Virus record (IMG/VR): IMGVR_UViG_3300013004_000148
Span: 1 to 27,852 of that record
Reading direction: 5' to 3' (one strand)
Length of the DNA: 27,852 nt
Origin: a virus
The notes beneath the pieces are model-generated. The model was given only the letters and a program-made list of their open reading frames with translations. It was not told the DNA's origin and made no database searches. Each line of letters opens with the position of its first letter. Within the stretch, counting starts at the first letter, position 1. This document shows, piece after piece, positions 1-27,852 of this stretch. The position numbers and the translations under genes were made by a program.

Positions 1-877
1 CAGTGTAATTAAATTCAGCGTTTCTTGCTCTACAAAATACAAAATCAGAAGTAATTGTTTCATTACTATTTAATGAGAAACTACTTGTTATAGATCCTGT
101 AGTTAATCCTATTCTACCAGATGATGTTGAAAATAAACGGGTTGGATTATTTGTATTAGTATTTGATGTTCTTAGAGTATTTAAAGCAATACCTCCATTA
201 GCAAATGATAAATCTAATGCTGGGGCATTTAGTATAATAGTTCCAATGTCTGGGAGGAATAAACCATATGACCCAGATATAGTCATACCAGCACTAATAG
301 CTCCAGGAGCACTATTTGCTGTTGTTATTGCTGCTCCATCACTTCCTGATACAATTTGGAATACTCGCCCTGCATCACAGTATGTAACTGTGGTTGTGTC
401 TAAACTATTATCTGTTAAAGTAATATTTCTAGAAGCAGAATATAATGTTAAATTTAATGAACCTGGGAATAATGATTCTTTAAATCTTGCTCTATCAATA
501 GTAATAGAATAAAAATCTTGTTGGGCTGGGGTAACTGTTGAAAATGAAAAATTAGTATTTTCATCCCCATAAATTAAATTACGGAATTGACCATATACTG
601 TTCTTGAAGGAGATAACCCATCTATACCAGCATTATATAATAATGAGCCTGATCCATTTATGTTACCATAAGCTATGTTAAATTGGATTTCAGCTGAGGT
701 ATCTGTAGAAGGATTAGCATTATACACATTTAAGTAATAATTACCTGATGTCCCTGCTATTTGTACAGATGATGTATATAGTGCGGTTATTGGAGAAACA
801 TAATTAGTCCAACATGGAGCTGTTACACTATCGGCACTAACTAAGAAGTCTTGAGGGTCTAATGATTTATATGACAT
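1..877 (-). CDS. Tail/baseplate-associated structural protein, 3' end cut by window edge
   Basis: An uninterrupted minus-strand frame starts at the ATG at 875-877 and runs off the left edge with no stop, giving at least 292 residues. It begins MSYKSLDPQDFLVSADSV and is rich in Ser, Thr, Asn and Gly, with alternating beta-type stretches like the following structural genes. It is the last gene seen in the baseplate/tail run, 17 bases after the stop of the 218-aa gene. I recognise no named domain; by position and composition it is probably a virion protein (tail, fibre or baseplate periphery). Certainty is good that it is a real gene and low for its role. Confidence 0.8.
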   Translation of the reverse strand, partial: MSYKSLDPQDFLVSADSVTAPCWTNYVSPITALYTSSVQIAGTSGNYYLNVYNANPSTDTSAEIQFNIAYGNINGSGSLLYNAGIDGLSPSRTVYGQFRNLIYGDENTNFSFSTVTPAQQDFYSITIDRARFKESLFPGSLNLTLYSASRNITLTDNSLDTTTVTYCDAGRVFQIVSGSDGAAITTANSAPGAISAGMTISGSYGLFLPDIGTIILNAPALDLSFANGGIALNTLRTSNTNTNNPTRLFSTSSGRIGLTTGSITSSFSLNSNETITSDFVFCRARNAEFNYT

Positions 878-18446: not shown

Positions 18447-18450
18447 TAGA

Positions 18451-18521
18451 GCTTCTTGTAGGAATCGAACCCACTTATCCTGAGTACAAATCAGGTGCAT
18501 CACCTTTTATGCTTAAGAAGC
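18451..18521 (-). tRNA. tRNA-Thr (TGT)
   Basis: A minus-strand cloverleaf: acceptor GCTTCTT/AAGAAGC (7 bp), D-arm GCAT-AAAAGGTG-ATGC, anticodon arm CCTGA-TTTGTAC-TCAGG with anticodon TGT, short variable loop ATAA, T-arm GTGGG-TTCGATT-CCTAC (one G-U), discriminator T. No CCA is encoded. First RNA after the promoter at 18534-18566. Confidence 0.93.
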
Positions 18522-18533
18522 TTTTATATATGA

Positions 18534-18566
18534 TGAATATAATATCCATCTATTGGGGAGCCAAAC
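18534..18566 (-). promoter_or_regulatory. Host-like promoter (copy 1) for the tRNA operon
   Basis: TTTGGC (-33, 18560-18565) and TATATTCA (-7, 18534-18541) separated by exactly 18 bases, the family spacing. It lies 12 bases upstream of tRNA-Thr. Confidence 0.8.
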
Positions 18567-18576
18567 TCTTATTAAT

Positions 18577-18603
18577 AAAAAAAGCCGGGCTTAACCCGGC
18601 TTT
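18577..18603 (-). terminator. Rho-independent terminator of the holin-like gene
   Basis: A perfect 9-bp stem AAAGCCGGG/CCCGGCTTT (18581-18603) with a TTAAG-type loop, followed on the minus strand by a run of seven T. It is 26 bases beyond the stop of the gene at 18629-18904. Confidence 0.9.
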
Positions 18604-19811: not shown

Positions 19812-20108
19812 TTATAATTCTTGAATTAGTGAACACATACGACTGATTGTGTTTCTGTATTTTTCTCTATAATCCATTCTCCATGGATCCTTATCTATAT
19901 CCTGAGCTAAAAGAACTGCCTGGTCCGCATATATCTTTAACTTCTCAGATGTTGAACCTTCAAATTCACCTTCTAAGGCATCAATTGTAGGTACAATAAA
20001 TATCTTTTGAACTGCCTTACGGCCTCTTTTTTTAGGTTCAGCTGTGCTTACTTCTAATTTAACTTCTTGTTTCTTTGTCCCGGGTGGGCGACCTCTTCTT
20101 TTTTCCAT
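19812..20108 (-). CDS. AT-hook-containing small protein (98 aa)
   Basis: The N-terminus contains KRRGRPPGTKK (residues 3-13), a canonical AT-hook (core RGRP), and KKRGRK at 27-32 is a second, partial hook. AT-hooks bind the minor groove of AT-rich DNA. Residues 55-98 are helical and acidic/basic mixed (EKLKIYADQAVLLAQDID), perhaps a partner-binding domain. It is the first gene of the operon with the DUF932 protein. A DNA-binding or nucleoid-like regulator in this AT-rich genome is plausible; not a recognised named protein. Confidence 0.8.
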   Translation of the reverse strand: MEKRRGRPPGTKKQEVKLEVSTAEPKKRGRKAVQKIFIVPTIDALEGEFEGSTSEKLKIYADQAVLLAQDIDKDPWRMDYREKYRNTISRMCSLIQEL

Positions 20109-20136: not shown

Positions 20137-20168
20137 TAAATATAATATCCTTATCCTGGTGAGCCAAA
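20137..20168 (-). promoter_or_regulatory. Host-like promoter (copy 2) for AT-hook/DUF932 operon
   Basis: TTTGGC (20163-20168), 18-base spacer, TATATTTA (20137-20144). It overlaps the 3' end of the upstream 56-aa gene's flank and is 28 bases before the ATG. Confidence 0.85.
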
Positions 20169-20171
20169 CTC

Positions 20172-20342
20172 TTAACCAAAGATGATTGTTAAAGCGATAT
20201 AAAACGCAAAATTAACAGTCACATTACCTAAAAAACTAACTAGTTCCTGTTTAGCTGTTGGTTTAACTTCAGCCTTTTTATTCGCGATTACTCGAGCGAT
20301 TACTGCTGTCAAAATCAAAATTGCAATTACTGTTGTGTTCAT
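20172..20342 (-). CDS. Small two-helix membrane protein (56 aa)
   Basis: A minus-strand frame from the ATG at 20340-20342 to the TAA at 20172-20174. Residues 4-20 (TVIAILILTAVIARVIA) and 40-56 (NVTVNFAFYIALTIIFG) are hydrophobic helices joined by a charged linker (NKKAEVKPTAKQE). It has its own host-like promoter (copy 3) and ends 3 bases before the next promoter's -33 box. Family not recognised; it is below the usual ORF cutoff but well supported by promoter and topology. Confidence 0.7.
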   Translation of the reverse strand: MNTTVIAILILTAVIARVIANKKAEVKPTAKQELVSFLGNVTVNFAFYIALTIIFG

Positions 20343-20368: not shown

Positions 20369-20400
20369 TAAATATAACATCCATTCACCAGGAAGCCAAA
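20369..20400 (-). promoter_or_regulatory. Host-like promoter (copy 3) for 56-aa membrane protein
   Basis: TTTGGC (20395-20400), 18-base spacer, TATATTTA (20369-20376), 26 bases before the ATG. Confidence 0.85.
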
Positions 20401-22778: not shown

Positions 22779-23036
22779 TTAAAATCGTGCTAAAGGATCT
22801 GAAGTGATGATGCCACCATCTTTTTCACCTCGTGAAGTTAACATTTGTTCCTGTGGTATTACTTCGACTATAACGCCGTTAGCAGTGAATTTACCACCCT
22901 GCTTTAGCAACTTCGTGAACAGCGTTGCGTGCTTAGGTTCCCATGTTTTACTCGCTTCTACTACCACTGCTTTGTCTACTACCTTACCATCAAATTTGAT
23001 AGTAATGCCTTTTCTAATTGCTCTTGATGAAATCAT
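22779..23036 (-). CDS. Small protein of unknown function (85 aa)
   Basis: First gene of the operon driven by promoter copy 4. The N-terminal part has short beta segments (KGITIKFDGKVVDKAVVVEA), the middle a helix HATLFTKLLKQGGKF, then another beta segment ANGVIVEVIP and a Gly-rich end. No domain recognised. The start is the ATG at 23034-23036 with an A-rich leader (AAAATAAAAACATATG). Confidence 0.72.
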   Translation of the reverse strand: MISSRAIRKGITIKFDGKVVDKAVVVEASKTWEPKHATLFTKLLKQGGKFTANGVIVEVIPQEQMLTSRGEKDGGIITSDPLARF

Positions 23037-23054: not shown

Positions 23055-23086
23055 TGAATATACGTATATACTCACTCGATGCCAAA
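23055..23086 (-). promoter_or_regulatory. Host-like promoter (copy 4) for the 23036-21492 operon
   Basis: TTTGGC (23081-23086), 18-base spacer, TATATTCA (23055-23062). The spacer is the most diverged of the family (TATATACG in place of GGATGT), but the spacing is kept. Confidence 0.75.
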
Positions 23087-23696: not shown

Positions 23697-23954
23697 TTAG
23701 TGTTTAATTTCGTAACTGAATAAGTAACCACAATCGTCATCGTACATATCAAACTCAGATACTACCAGACCTGATAACTGCGCTCTAATGTCTTCGTTTA
23801 AGCGTTGCCAGTAACCGATTCTCAAATAACGTTCGTTGTCTTTGAATATACGGAATTGGATATCACTAACATCGTAACCGTTGTTTACTAAAATGTTTTC
23901 GATTGCTACTTCAGTTGCTGTAACTGGGGCTTCATTGTCTGATCTAAATTTCAT
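23697..23954 (-). CDS. Small protein of unknown function (85 aa)
   Basis: The frame is open to 24023, but that stretch contains promoter copy 5; I place the start at the ATG at 23952-23954 (MKFRSDNEAPVTATEVAIEN), which has the leader AAAACAGATATAACATG shared with two other cassettes. The N-terminal helix (TATEVAIENILVNNG) and following beta segments (IQFRIFKDNERYLRIGYW) suggest a small alpha/beta fold. No domain recognised. Confidence 0.72.
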   Translation of the reverse strand: MKFRSDNEAPVTATEVAIENILVNNGYDVSDIQFRIFKDNERYLRIGYWQRLNEDIRAQLSGLVVSEFDMYDDDCGYLFSYEIKH

Positions 23955-23967
23955 GTTATATCTGTTT

Positions 23968-24141
23968 TTAATTATACCTAAATATAACATCACCTGGGCG
24001 CGGAGCCAAACAAGTGTCCACAAGTGTTGTATCTGTTATCACGATCGGAACCGTCTCACCATACTGGCTCACCCAATATATGTCTGTTGTCGTCGGGGAA
24101 CATCCCGCTAGCATGAGCGCTACTATAAGGAAACGTACCAT
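23968..24141 (-). CDS. Tiny predicted lipoprotein (57 aa)
   Basis: A minus-strand frame from the ATG at 24139-24141 to the TAA at 23968-23970. Residues 1-14 (MVRFLIVALMLAGC) are a textbook lipoprotein signal with lipobox LAGC at 11-14, so the mature protein would start at Cys14 and be anchored in the envelope. The remainder (SPTTTDIYWVSQYG onward) is short and Thr/Val-rich. It overlaps the end of the caspase-like gene by 19 bases, and its last third contains promoter copy 5. Candidates are an Rz1-like outer-membrane spanin or a superinfection-exclusion lipoprotein; neither is shown. Confidence 0.68.
   Translation of the reverse strand: MVRFLIVALMLAGCSPTTTDIYWVSQYGETVPIVITDTTLVDTCLAPRPGDVIFRYN
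23979..24010 (-). promoter_or_regulatory. Host-like promoter (copy 5) for the 23954-23342 genes
   Basis: TTTGGC (24005-24010), 18-base GC-rich spacer, TATATTTA (23979-23986). It lies inside the 3' part of the lipoprotein frame, 25 bases before the ATG at 23954. Confidence 0.85.
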
Positions 24142-24860: not shown

Positions 24861-25106
24861 TTATTTATTTGCTATTTGATTCATAACCTCGAGTACATCG
24901 TCCGGTGAACACCATCCACGAACATCATCATGTTCGCTCAGTTTCACCCATTTCCTATCTGGACCCCATGCTGCAATTTCAGCTGTGGTCTCACCACCGT
25001 CTGAGTAATTGGTTTTACTAAATTGGACACTTATAGTGTATCCATTTTTGAATGTCATATGGAACCCGTTATGGTATTCGTTTTGTGTTGCTCTAAATTT
25101 ACTCAT
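24861..25106 (-). CDS. Small phage protein of unknown function (81 aa)
   Basis: It reads as a small beta-rich domain: NGFHMTFKNGYTISVQFSK, then TTAEIAAWGPDRKWVKL and a C-terminal helix SPDDVLEVMNQIANK. I recall similar proteins from diverse phages without function. It overlaps the 87-aa gene by ATGA and is followed one base later by the membrane protein, in an operon from promoter copy 6. Confidence 0.75.
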   Translation of the reverse strand: MSKFRATQNEYHNGFHMTFKNGYTISVQFSKTNYSDGGETTAEIAAWGPDRKWVKLSEHDDVRGWCSPDDVLEVMNQIANK

Positions 25107-25366
25107 ATGTCTAATGCTTTTCTTTGTATATTAATAAACCACTCAATTGTCTCACCATCCTCCTTAACTTTATCACTAGCGTCATTTAAAACGCAAACGT
25201 CAAAACGTGATTTGTGATACTCAATACTGTCATGATAATTTTTATAATCAGGTTTGATAAACGTTACTCGTCCTCCGTCTCCATCATCTACTACCTCGTA
25301 ACCTAATCCTGTTACCATTTCAAATACTAGCTTGTTAAGCGCTTTTCTTGATTCTGTTTTGTTCAT
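25103..25366 (-). CDS. Small protein of unknown function (87 aa)
   Basis: First gene of the operon from promoter copy 6. An N-terminal helix (SRKALNKLVFEMVTGLG) is followed by YEVVDDGDGGRVTFIKPDY and a C-terminal helix ETIEWFINIQRKALDI. No family recognised. The start at 25364-25366 has the leader ACGAACATG. It ends in ATGA overlap with the next gene. Confidence 0.73.
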   Translation of the reverse strand: MNKTESRKALNKLVFEMVTGLGYEVVDDGDGGRVTFIKPDYKNYHDSIEYHKSRFDVCVLNDASDKVKEDGETIEWFINIQRKALDI

Positions 25367-25388
25367 GTTCGTGTTATTTAATTATGAC

Positions 25389-25420
25389 TAAATATAACAT
25401 CACCCTCACCAGAGGCCAAA
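25389..25420 (-). promoter_or_regulatory. Host-like promoter (copy 6) for the 25366-23968 operon
   Basis: TTTGGC (25415-25420), 18-base spacer, TATATTTA (25389-25396), 22 bases before the ATG, directly downstream of a terminator hairpin. Confidence 0.87.
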
Positions 25421-25431
25421 CCTAGGTACGG

Positions 25432-25452
25432 AAAAGGGCCCCTATGGGGCCC
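25432..25452 (-). terminator. Terminator stem-loop after the 172-aa gene
   Basis: A perfect 7-bp GC stem GGGCCCC/GGGGCCC with loop ATA, followed by TTTT on the minus strand. It stands directly before promoter copy 6. Confidence 0.8.
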
Positions 25453-25486
25453 ACATCCTATATAATTAAAAACACACATGAACTAC

Positions 25487-26005
25487 TTAACTGATCCTCT
25501 CTAGGTACATGTCCCCAAAAATATCATCTATCTCATCACTTATCGAATCCGGATCCAAATTAATCGCATCCTCAATCTCACTATTAACATTATTAGCAAG
25601 TGTATTATTGTCTAACTCCACCTCAATTGTTTTACTCCAGCTATTTAACTCTATTTCAACCACGTCATCCGCGTTTAATTCCATATCGGTAACCGCTTTC
25701 TTAACTGAATCAAGTACTCGTTCTGTCAATCTAGTGGCGAAGTCGATCATTTCTGCTCTGGTAAGGTGAACATGTCCCACGTACTTATTATCCTCTGTTA
25801 CCATGTACTGGCCATCCACAACTCGGTCCTCTTTACTGAAACCAGCGCTATCAAACTCAGGACCTTCGTCTTCCACTTCCACAGGTGATTCATCACATCC
25901 ACATCCACAAGCTGCATCCTCGCAGGTGGTGTCACCACACACTGCAATTTCGATTGCGCTAATCTTATCTTTTAACTCCATTAATTGTTCTAATACTGTC
26001 TTCAT
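25487..26005 (-). CDS. Acidic protein with N-terminal Cys cluster (172 aa)
   Basis: I place the start at the ATG at 26003-26005 (MKTVLEQLMELKDKISAIEI) rather than the longer frame, which would overlap promoter copy 7; the leader AAAACAGATAACATG supports it. Residues 23-37 contain five Cys (CGDTTCEDAACGCGC), suggesting metal binding. The rest is strongly acidic (Asp/Glu), with helices such as ARAEMIDFATRLTERVLDSV (approximate) and NNTLANNVNSEIEDAIN. No family recognised. It is the sole gene of its cassette, flanked by promoter and terminator. Confidence 0.75.
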   Translation of the reverse strand: MKTVLEQLMELKDKISAIEIAVCGDTTCEDAACGCGCDESPVEVEDEGPEFDSAGFSKEDRVVDGQYMVTEDNKYVGHVHLTRAEMIDFATRLTERVLDSVKKAVTDMELNADDVVEIELNSWSKTIEVELDNNTLANNVNSEIEDAINLDPDSISDEIDDIFGDMYLERIS

Positions 26006-26028
26006 GTTATCTGTTTTTATTATTGATC

Positions 26029-26060
26029 TAAATATAATGTCCTGTCCTCCGAGAGCCAAA
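26029..26060 (-). promoter_or_regulatory. Host-like promoter (copy 7) for the 172-aa gene
   Basis: TTTGGC (26055-26060), 18-base spacer, TATATTTA (26029-26036), 24 bases before the ATG. Confidence 0.85.
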
Positions 26061-26067
26061 CTTAAGA

Positions 26068-26250
26068 TTATTTAAATTTGTATTTCTTTACCTCATAATC
26101 AATTACTTCTTCATCCACCTCATCCTCCTCATCAACGTCCTTCTGATGACTCATCACTCGGTGAACTGCTGCTTCCTCATCCTCAGCATCCACAAAATAA
26201 ACTCGTTTAACTGTTTTCAAAACTGTTTCTTCTACCTTAAATGTCTTCAT
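26068..26250 (-). CDS. Small acidic protein, DpnD/PcfM-like in layout (60 aa)
   Basis: The frame is open to 26334, but that stretch includes promoter copy 8; the ATG at 26248-26250 (MKTFKVEETVLKTVKRVYFV) is the sensible start. A beta strand, the turn VDAEDEEAAVHRVMSHQK and an acidic strand EVIDYEVKKYKFK give the beta-helix-beta plan of small phage proteins related to DpnD/PcfM; the relation is tentative. The 79-aa gene upstream has a similar plan. Sole gene of its cassette. Confidence 0.7.
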   Translation of the reverse strand: MKTFKVEETVLKTVKRVYFVDAEDEEAAVHRVMSHQKDVDEEDEVDEEVIDYEVKKYKFK

Positions 26251-26274
26251 GTGTTTATGTTTTTTAATTATGTC

Positions 26275-26306
26275 TGAATATAACATCCATGTCCCGTTAG
26301 GCCAAA
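26275..26306 (-). promoter_or_regulatory. Host-like promoter (copy 8) for the 60-aa gene
   Basis: TTTGGC (26301-26306), 18-base spacer, TATATTCA (26275-26282), 25 bases before the ATG. Confidence 0.85.
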
Positions 26307-26318
26307 CAAATGGTAAGA

Positions 26319-26332
26319 GAGGTTTAATCCTC
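26319..26332 (-). terminator. Short hairpin over the stop codon of the 79-aa gene
   Basis: A 4-bp stem GAGG/CCTC with loop ATTAAA; the TAA stop (26324-26326) lies in the loop. Weak on its own, but it matches the arrangement at 27226-27242 and precedes promoter copy 8. Confidence 0.4.
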
Positions 26333-26563
26333 AATTACCTCTAATTCCTCAATTTCATAAGAGGTACTATCATAATCAATCATTTCCCAATTGTCATACC
26401 CTTCATTTTCATCTACATCCCCATTTTCAATTGCTATTTCAAAATTATGTTTAACCATTTCCCTTTCAGCTAAATCTCTTGATTTAAAAGCTAAACAGGT
26501 TACATTGTTCAAGTCAAAACTTGATGAATCGTACTGCCAAATTTTCAATAGGTAAATTTTCAT
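26324..26563 (-). CDS. Small acidic protein (79 aa)
   Basis: It opens with a beta strand (MKIYLLKIWQYDSS), then CLAFKSRDLAEREMVKHNF, a helix, and a highly acidic C-terminal half (GDVDENEGYDNWEMIDYD, then YEIEELEVIED). The beta-helix-acidic beta plan parallels the neighbouring 60-aa protein, suggesting they are distant paralogues. The start at 26561-26563 follows the AAAACAGATATAATATG leader. No named family. Confidence 0.72.
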   Translation of the reverse strand: MKIYLLKIWQYDSSSFDLNNVTCLAFKSRDLAEREMVKHNFEIAIENGDVDENEGYDNWEMIDYDSTSYEIEELEVIED

Positions 26564-26588
26564 ATTATATCTGTTTTTTAATTATATA

Positions 26589-26620
26589 TGAATATAACAT
26601 CACCTTACCCAATAACCAAA
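26589..26620 (-). promoter_or_regulatory. Host-like promoter (copy 9) for the 79-aa gene
   Basis: TTTGGT (26615-26620, one change from TTTGGC), 18-base spacer, TATATTCA (26589-26596), 26 bases before the ATG. Confidence 0.8.
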
Positions 26621-26625
26621 CATGT

Positions 26626-26895
26626 TTAGTTAAGGTAAAACCCTATTTCCTGTACCTCGTTCTTGGCGAAATTTTTAGCCGACTGTAGGAAGTGTAGGTG
26701 CAAGTGCAAGGCGTTGATGTCGTCCATGATCTCCCTAGTTGGTCTCATGTCTAGGAACATCATCGAATTATGTTCTAGTTCCTGTATTTGCTTCAGCGCT
26801 TGTTCTATCGATTTGTTAGCCGTGGCTAGTATTTCTAGGATCTGATGCGCCTGTAAACGCTCTAATACTTCGTTTGTGTGTTTATCGTAATCCAT
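26626..26895 (-). CDS. Small helical protein (89 aa)
   Basis: Nearly all helical with many Leu, Gln and Glu: VLERLQAHQILEILATANKS, then IEQALKQIQELEHN, then DDINALHLHLHFLQSAKNF. Coiled-coil or helical-bundle assembly is likely. It begins one base after the stop of the 88-aa gene, so it shares that gene's promoter (copy 10). Family not recognised. Its base composition is somewhat richer in GC than its neighbours. Confidence 0.72.
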   Translation of the reverse strand: MDYDKHTNEVLERLQAHQILEILATANKSIEQALKQIQELEHNSMMFLDMRPTREIMDDINALHLHLHFLQSAKNFAKNEVQEIGFYLN

Positions 26896-26896
26896 C

Positions 26897-27163
26897 TTAT
26901 TTAAATTTATTTATAATGTCCTTAATACAATGTTCTTCTCCTAAATTAATTGTCCAAACACTTCTAACCATTCTCTTTTTACCATCCTTAACTCCTACTA
27001 CCTTCATAATTCGTTCTTCACCTGTAAAACCTTTACATCCTTCCTTTCTCATCCAATAATGAAAAGTAATGTTCACACCATCTACTTTTGTCTCCTTCTC
27101 CCAATATTGGTTAATACAATACTCTGAAGTTGAGTTAATTTGTTCTTCTCTGAAATTTTTCAT
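26897..27163 (-). CDS. Small basic protein of unknown function (88 aa)
   Basis: The frame is open to 27196, but promoter copy 10 is there; I use the ATG at 27161-27163 (MKNFREEQINSTSEYCINQY). It is rich in Lys, Trp and aromatic residues, with beta-type segments (GVNITFHYWMRKEG, KKRMVRSVWTINLG) and a short C-terminal helix. No domain recognised. First gene of a two-gene cassette with the 89-aa protein. Confidence 0.72.
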   Translation of the reverse strand: MKNFREEQINSTSEYCINQYWEKETKVDGVNITFHYWMRKEGCKGFTGEERIMKVVGVKDGKKRMVRSVWTINLGEEHCIKDIINKFK

Positions 27164-27184
27164 ATTCGTGTTTTTAATTATACA

Positions 27185-27216
27185 TAAATATAACATCCAT
27201 GTTCGGCTAAGCCAAA
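27185..27216 (-). promoter_or_regulatory. Host-like promoter (copy 10) for the 27163-26626 genes
   Basis: TTTGGC (27211-27216), 18-base spacer, TATATTTA (27185-27192), 22 bases before the ATG. Confidence 0.86.
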
Positions 27217-27225
27217 CAAAGGTGT

Positions 27226-27242
27226 AAGGGGTTAAACCCCTT
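27226..27242 (-). terminator. Terminator hairpin over the stop codon of the 76-aa gene
   Basis: A perfect 6-bp stem AAGGGG/CCCCTT with loop TTTAA; the TAA stop (27232-27234) lies in the loop. It directly precedes promoter copy 10. Confidence 0.65.
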
Positions 27243-27462
27243 TAAAATCAAAATCAATACATCTACCCATCATCATTCCATACCCATCATGGCCTTCTAT
27301 AAAACTTATATTATTATCATTTAATATTTTTTTACACTTAACCCAATTCACTCTCCCATCAACCCTACAAATTCTAAATCTATCATTATTATCCATCCTC
27401 ATTACAAAAATACCATCCCCACACTTACTAAACATTTCTCTTAACATTTCTAATCTTTCCAT
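27232..27462 (-). CDS. Small protein of unknown function (76 aa)
   Basis: An N-terminal helix (MERLEMLREMFSKCGDG) is followed by beta-type FVMRMDNNDRFRICRVDGR and a Gly/Met-rich end (GHDGYGMMMGRCIDFDF). Three Cys residues are spread through the protein. No family recognised. Sole gene of its cassette, from promoter copy 11, with its stop codon embedded in a terminator-like hairpin. Confidence 0.72.
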   Translation of the reverse strand: MERLEMLREMFSKCGDGIFVMRMDNNDRFRICRVDGRVNWVKCKKILNDNNISFIEGHDGYGMMMGRCIDFDFKGV

Positions 27463-27485
27463 AATATTATATTTTTAATTATACC

Positions 27486-27517
27486 TAAATATAATAAATA
27501 TTACCCACAAAGCCAAA
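27486..27517 (-). promoter_or_regulatory. Host-like promoter (copy 11) for the 76-aa gene
   Basis: TTTGGC (27512-27517), 18-base spacer, TATATTTA (27486-27493), 24 bases before the ATG. Confidence 0.86.
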
Positions 27518-27530
27518 CAATGGTACACAA

Positions 27531-27560
27531 CAAGATGGGGCCCCTTTGGGCCCCTACTTG
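27531..27560 (-). terminator. GC-rich stem-loop after the HTH gene
   Basis: A perfect 7-bp stem GGGGCCC/GGGCCCC (27537-27554) with loop AAAG, extended by an outer CAAG/CTTG. There is no T-run on the minus strand, so it may act as a stem-loop rather than a classical terminator. It directly precedes promoter copy 11. Confidence 0.6.
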
Positions 27561-27584
27561 TAAAAACACACACATGGCTGGGTA

Positions 27585-27794
27585 TTAACCCACTAGCTCG
27601 ATAGTCTTCATACGACGACGAGACATATTGTACATAGCGTTCGCTACGTCTTGGTTCACCGAACGGTTACCGTTAATGATGTTTGAAACATGACTGGTAG
27701 AATAACCAGTTGCTTCTGCTAGGCGAGCGGTGTCACCTTGTCTTTGACGTGCATTGTAGAACGCCAATTTTGCTGTACGATTTAATTTACGCAT
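27585..27794 (-). CDS. Small HTH DNA-binding protein (69 aa)
   Basis: Residues about 20-46 form a Cro/CI-type helix-turn-helix (DTARLAEATGYSTSHVSNII followed by NGNRSVN), with a basic N-terminal helix and a short C-terminal RRRMKTIELVG. The size fits a single HTH domain, such as a small repressor or activator of phage genes. It is the first gene at the right end. A possible twelfth family promoter lies just upstream, cut by the window edge, and a TATAAATA box lies at 27812-27819. Confidence 0.8.
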   Translation of the reverse strand: MRKLNRTAKLAFYNARQRQGDTARLAEATGYSTSHVSNIINGNRSVNQDVANAMYNMSRRRMKTIELVG

Positions 27795-27811
27795 AACTTT
27801 AATTAATTATT

Positions 27812-27819
27812 TATTTATA
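27812..27819 (-). promoter_or_regulatory. TATAAATA late-promoter-like box
   Basis: An exact TATAAATA on the minus strand, in the context GGGATATAAATAAATAAT, almost identical to the context at 17485-17492. It is 17 bases before the HTH gene's ATG. Confidence 0.4.
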
Positions 27820-27821
27820 TC

Positions 27822-27852
27822 CCAATATACGATAGTACTAGTGTTAGAGCAA
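27822..27852 (-). promoter_or_regulatory. Truncated host-like promoter (copy 12, partial)
   Basis: TATATTGG (27822-27829) lies at the family distance from TTG at the extreme right edge (TTGCT, 27848-27852), as if the first T of TTTG were just outside. A tentative member of the family. Confidence 0.5.

Follow-up and report, generated by a model that had tools for sequence, protein, structure and literature searches.

In T4-type myoviruses, cassettes made of an early promoter and a stem-loop lie between small accessory genes, and these elements are dense in variable regions and form conserved borders around genes that have been swapped. They are known as PeSL (promoter early stem-loop) cassettes (Arbiol et al. 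2010 and Comeau et al. 2014, as cited in PMC4503421), for which the 2014 title, as given there, uses the term "composite conserved promoter-terminator motifs". In the haloarchaeal myovirus HGTV-1, a TATA-like box with an inverted repeat stands before most left-hand-side ORFs. According to the review PMC3950731, this motif was proposed to be both a transcription regulator and a gene shuffler, the shuffling being suggested from its similarity to PeSLs. The repeated intergenic elements of halovirus HF2 carry promoters, which were tested by reporter assay (PMC8707807).

The window analyzed here is the IMG/VR virus record IMGVR_UViG_3300013004_000148, a stretch of 27,852 bases. Its repeat array resembles PeSLs in that it lies in a T4-type myovirus, places a repeated promoter before small accessory ORFs, and has cassettes bordering exchanged genes (18 junction types). 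It differs in that the promoter is of the Bacteroidota -33/-7 type and not an E. coli sigma-70 early promoter, a conserved A-rich leader belongs to the repeat, the stem-loop accompanies only around half of the copies, and neither the phage lineage nor the presumed host phylum is the same. With a promoter unlike the E. coli early type and many copies lacking the stem-loop, these cassettes are not classed as PeSLs in the strict sense. A promoter-like motif before many genes, accompanied by an inverted repeat, is shared with HGTV-1, whose promoter is, however, archaeal. The HF2 repeats are also archaeal, unlike the window cassettes, and cassette shuffling goes unmentioned in the passages of PMC8707807 that were consulted.

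The virus and its promoter repeat

The baseplate genes of the window are T4-type, namely gp25 (Pfam match 9e-9) and a gp6-type gene (PHROGs), and the window also contains two tRNAs and a DUF932 gene. From approximately 20 kb onward, it is occupied by small genes that, with few exceptions, lie on the minus strand, and most of them have no known family. A DNA-level search with the window gave no close match in the phage collection; among cultured phages, Flavobacterium phage immuto is the closest relative as judged by the baseplate protein (47% identity). The lineage was assigned as T4-type because a 160.8-kb relative (G005) has a Gp23-type capsid gene (6e-61) and tail sheath genes. The window virus is described as a T4-like phage of Bacteroidota-type bacteria, this host phylum being presumed. 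Weak RecA-domain matches in frames of 362-365 aa suggest a UvsX-like recombinase. Gene families and promoters were charted along seven IMG/VR relatives (A2=G002, A3=G003, A5=G005, A6=G006, A7=G007, A8=G008, A9=G009).

Bacteroidota sigma-ABfr promoters have a spacing of approximately 20 nt between the -33 and -7 elements, with which the spacing in the window agrees. The pattern TTTGG-N19-TATATTYA occurs in 11 copies in the window, all on the minus strand, against 0.01 expected; none of 100 shuffles reached 11, and the reversed pattern gave 0 matches in the window and likewise in the relatives. All 11 copies end 12-28 nt upstream of a start codon or, in one case, of tRNA-Thr, and most of the small accessory genes are preceded by one of these near-identical elements. 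A motif scan located the promoter of gene 27232-27462 at 27486..27517 (-33 TTTGGC, -7 TATATTTA) and that of genes 26897-27163 and 26626-26895 at 27185..27216. Further copies lie at 26589..26620 (a TTTGGT variant, gene 26324-26563), 26275..26306 (gene 26068-26250), 26029..26060 (gene 25487-26005), 25389..25420 (gene 25103-25366), 23979..24010 (gene 23697-23954), 20369..20400 (gene 20172-20342), and 20137..20168 (gene 19812-20108). A divergent copy at 23055..23086 precedes gene 22779-23036 and has a palindromic GTATATACGTATAT overlapping its -7 element, while the copy at 18534..18565 stands 12 nt upstream of tRNA-Thr (18449-18521). The relatives carry the same array, packed in accessory regions with strand ratios of 24:0, 31:1, and 28:0. 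The strict form of the pattern was found in at least 120 stretches in IMG/VR, and the entire collection of cellular genomes gave 10 single matches.

Derived from 120 unique copies in the window and the seven relatives, the consensus is (A/T)G-TTTGGCYT-N3-GG-N6-GATGTTATATTYA-GGTATAATTAAAAA. The sequence of host sigma-70 (E. coli-type) early promoters was not matched by the window promoters. The Bacteroidetes promoter consensus consists of -33 TTTG and -7 TANNTTTG, the final G of which is nearly invariant in F. johnsoniae (PMC6847099). The repeat, with -33 TTTGGC and -7 TATATTYA at 20-nt spacing, fits this consensus exactly at TTTG and differs in the -7 element at the final position (G to A). 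The A-rich leader following the window promoters fits the translation without Shine-Dalgarno sequences that such leaders are described to suit in Bacteroidetes (PMC6847099). Three leaders (AAAAACAGATATAACATG before 23954, AAAAACAGATAACATG before 26005, and AAAAAACAGATATAATATG before 26563) are indeed nearly identical up to the ATG, as the sequence-only reading had stated. From these sequence features, we infer that the repeats are Bacteroidota-type promoters, which would be active and fire early with the host RNA polymerase.

Three features go beyond the published host consensus, namely the TTTGGC extension, GG at +11/+12, and GATG preceding the -7 element. Together with the palindrome GTATATACGTATAT in one promoter class, they favor a reading in which the repeats are binding sites of a phage regulator, either operators or a phage-specific promoter class, that are kept alike by the regulator while recombination is incidental. 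We regard this as rather improbable, as spacers differ freely from cassette to cassette and are exchanged among genes at the junctions, and no regulator was identified. Regulator binding and recombination at the repeats are mutually compatible.

Stem-loops adjoining the promoters

The sequence-only reading had located stem-loop and promoter cassettes at 25366-27794. They are present there; however, the array is wider, spanning 18.5-27.5 kb in the window and extending further upstream in the relatives, and only 5 of the 11 promoters have a strong upstream stem-loop. The four units that had been singled out (27531-27486, 27242-27185, 26332-26275, and 25452-25389) were recovered as four of the 11 promoters, each with a stem-loop just upstream on the minus strand. 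These stem-loops are GGGGCCCAAAGGGGCCCC at 27537..27554, upstream of the 27517 promoter; AAGGGG-TTTAA-CCCCTT at 27226..27242, adjoining the 27216 promoter; an imperfect one at 26312..26339, upstream of the 26306 promoter; and GGGCCCC-ATA-GGGGCCC followed by TTTT at 25436..25452. The fifth is a terminator-like hairpin, AAAGCCGGGTTAAGCCCGGCTTT with a T run, at 18581..18603 (minus strand) upstream of the 18565 promoter. The promoters without a strong stem-loop are those at 26620, 26060, 24010, 23086, 20400, and 20168.

When the 40 nt directly upstream of 105 unique promoters were folded, the mean z was -1.72, and 53% fell below -1.5 versus 13% of control stretches. Swapping the upstream halves between promoters weakened the mean MFE from -5.50 to -3.83 (sd 0.08), which indicates that the stem pairing is real in the promoter population. 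Orthologous stem-loops before the 25103-25366 gene have changed in sequence and kept the stem (GGGCCCC-ATA-GGGGCCC, GGGGCCG-CTTG-CGGCCCC, and GGGCCC-ATTA-GGGCCC). Where the neighbors have changed, the stem-loop stays with the preceding gene, as expected of a terminator. By sequence, these elements appear terminator-like, and we infer that they would terminate transcription. As a stem-loop occurs in only about half of the close relatives' cassettes, the recombining homology is mainly promoter and leader.

Two other candidate structures were discarded. A hairpin inside the promoter spacer (e.g., TTTGGCCTTCGGGCC) was only modestly enriched (13.2% vs 8.8% with swapped halves) and was therefore not included in the model. 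What looked like an inverted leader beside GC hairpins belongs to a conserved CATGTGTGTG-T(n) box that precedes the terminator.

Junctions between relatives

The PeSL-like organization with a Bacteroidota-type promoter, as originally proposed, implied that genes between cassettes differ among related phages while the cassette is conserved at the junctions. This was observed at nucleotide resolution in the seven IMG/VR relatives, among which the opposite pattern, strictly conserved gene content without junction homology, was not seen. The proposal is supported, with the limit that the stem-loop is not a constant part of the cassette. The accessory block upstream of window 25.4 kb consists of promoter-gene units whose order is largely conserved, and relatives differ by the absence or addition of single units. 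L003 lacks the window gene 27232-27462 (minus strand, 76 aa, family a15), and the single promoter remaining at the junction aligns to both flanking window promoters. Gene 26324-26563 (minus strand, 79 aa, family a18) is missing in L003, L006, L007, L008, and L012, where the junction falls at the promoter or in the flank upstream of it.

Pairwise comparisons at sites where one unit is absent and promoters stand on both sides numbered 48 and are not independent of one another. In these, the upstream flank of the remaining promoter came from cassette 1 in 44/48 and its leader from cassette 2 in 44/48, while the spacer came from cassette 1 in 16 and from cassette 2 in 31. A single-crossover fit resolved 13 of the 18 junction types inside the cassette, all within -17..+47 around the -33 T. 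At 12 of the 13, the true flanking cassette pair beat all other pairs that the donor genome offers, and at the remaining one it was tied by 1 of 275. The cleanest junction (A3 to A6, a10|a12) gave 128/130 matches with a crossover at +20, between -33 and -7, in exact register. At some junctions, the best-fit breakpoint was upstream of the promoter (a3|a5, a14|a16 in A3, and a17|a9). Selection to keep one promoter would also favor junctions in or near the promoter.

Metagenomic contigs mis-joined at repeated promoters could in principle yield false chimeras; the close relatives are all metagenomic contigs, and an L001 difference at 27590 sits 316 nt from a contig end. Such an artefact is highly improbable, since the exact runs shared by partner cassettes today (8-27 nt, mostly 8-16, with a single pair, at 27 nt, exceeding 23 nt) are below the usual assembly word sizes. 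In addition, junctions such as a17|a9, a10|a12, a6|a8, and a2|a3 were seen again, at 84-97% identity, in contigs from different metagenomes, and a comparable array exists in a cultured phage (immuto, described below).

The shortness of the shared runs speaks against cassette shuffling insofar as they are short for classical RecA-type recombination. It would suit an ordinary promoter array, in which every early gene has a host-type promoter of its own, units are turned over non-homologously, and selection discards junctions without an intact promoter, so that the repeats have no role and the chimeras are a by-product. Non-homologous turnover clearly occurs in these phages, as gene turnover in the promoter-less accessory block is about as high: cassette-flanked genes lack a counterpart in relatives in 35% of cases versus 30% for promoter-less accessory genes, and gene adjacency is broken at 75% of promoter boundaries versus 67% of others. 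This similarity indicates that the cassettes mark the position of junctions more clearly than the rate of turnover. Promoter-less indels had no boundary homology, with local scores at the shuffled level in approximately 30 of 32, compared with scores of 18-41 for cassette-flanked units, and therefore two modes of turnover coexist. As a full account of the array, non-homologous turnover is nevertheless unlikely. At several junctions (+20..21, +14..17, +7..8, +18..19, and +13..30), the crossover lies in the -33/-7 spacer or the -7 core and the 19-nt spacing is preserved exactly, whereas random joints would rarely be in register. Moreover, cassettes within one genome are sometimes identical over 30-47 nt although spacers are otherwise variable, for example from the leader through the start codon before two unrelated positions' genes in A6 (5627 and 9472, different genes), which suggests that cassettes were exchanged or duplicated recently.

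Clear relocation of a unit was seen in one case, the a7/a5 order in A5 versus A2. Apparent translocations of a6 and a37 were actually diverged homologues of approximately 40-50% identity.

Proposed exchange and its distribution

On the sequence comparisons above, it is likely that the promoter cassettes shuffle accessory genes by recombination inside them. In the proposed mechanism, each small accessory gene or short gene run would form its own unit, composed of a host-type Bacteroidota promoter (-33 TTTG, -7 TATATTTA), an A-rich leader, and the gene. About half of the units would end in a terminator-like stem-loop, the 3' arm of which runs into the next promoter. Since all units start with nearly the same 50-60 nt or so, cassettes within one phage or between co-infecting phages could recombine in register, which would add or remove whole units and leave one working promoter. 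The junctions would be made by homology-directed recombination, probably by annealing or strand switching at short homology.

A comparable array was found in Flavobacterium phage vB_FspM_immuto (NC_055915), which contains 15 exact copies of GTTG-N20-TATNTTTAGNTATCAATAATTAAAA on one strand before small accessory genes. Two of its copies are identical over 49 nt, and some are accompanied by a hairpin. The immuto TATATTTAGGTATCAATAATTAAAA closely resembles the -7 element and leader of the window, whereas its -33 element is of the GTTGCC type instead of TTTGGC. The papers found gave no description of the immuto array, and the stretch examined of the Microcystis phage Mel-JY01 record held no such array. 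We lean slightly toward the view that PeSL-like shuffling evolved independently and is a general feature of Bacteroidota T4-type phages, with at least two dialects (the TTTGGC type and the GTTGCC type of immuto) and exchange by crossover inside the promoter core.

These observations would extend gene shuffling by promoter cassettes to a different promoter, in phages of another phylum, and suggest a tendency to recombine at promoters in lytic phages whose early units are many and self-contained. Nucleotide-level junctions are now given for an abundant group of uncultured phages, and the cultured immuto provides a relative in which promoter activity and recombination are measurable. In these genomes, the cassettes would mark the entry and exit sites of accessory genes without an assigned function.

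Hairpins, palindromes and boxes around the promoters

A perfect hairpin spanning the -33 element and the spacer was observed in some promoters (TTTGGCTCCTTCGGGAGCC and TTTGGCCTTCGGGCC; G024:C1 6742-70751 and, in the 160.8-kb relative, G005:C1 67676-113568), so that a terminator and a promoter may overlap there. The enrichment of this hairpin over all promoters was modest. Another promoter, on the minus strand of the window (23055-23086), carries in its sequence the palindrome GTATATACGTATAT over the -7 element, and is perhaps a regulated promoter. It usually occurs in 1-2 copies per genome, and was also found in other phages, including distant relatives (G010, G011, G017, G019, G020, G022, and G031). 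Between the stop codon and the GC hairpin, a box CATGTGTGTG-T(n) is located at 27556-27575 and 25461-25482, which is accompanied in some cases by TTTTTAATTATA; the box was also detected in several other phages, some of them distant (L034, L106, and L116).

tRNA-Thr and a candidate recombinase

Within 18449-18565 of the window, tRNA-Thr is preceded at a distance of 12 nt by a cassette promoter, so that tRNA genes, too, seem to be driven by this promoter class. Weak RecA-domain matches in 362-365-aa frames throughout the lineage (G005:C1 121177-121389) suggest a UvsX-like recombinase.

A possible gene replacement and the immuto array

The phage contig L001 was identical to the window (100%) across 9.2 kb. 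Within its positions 1-316, compared with window 27590-27852, another gene with its own cassette promoter occupies the place of the HTH gene (27585-27794), reflecting either a recent exchange or a contig-end chimera. Fifteen promoter cassettes are arrayed on a single strand in the cultured Flavobacterium phage vB_FspM_immuto (L185; NC_055915.1, 67607-73844). They differ from the window cassettes in the -33 type (GTTGCC versus TTTGGC), constituting immuto's own array, which is apparently undescribed.
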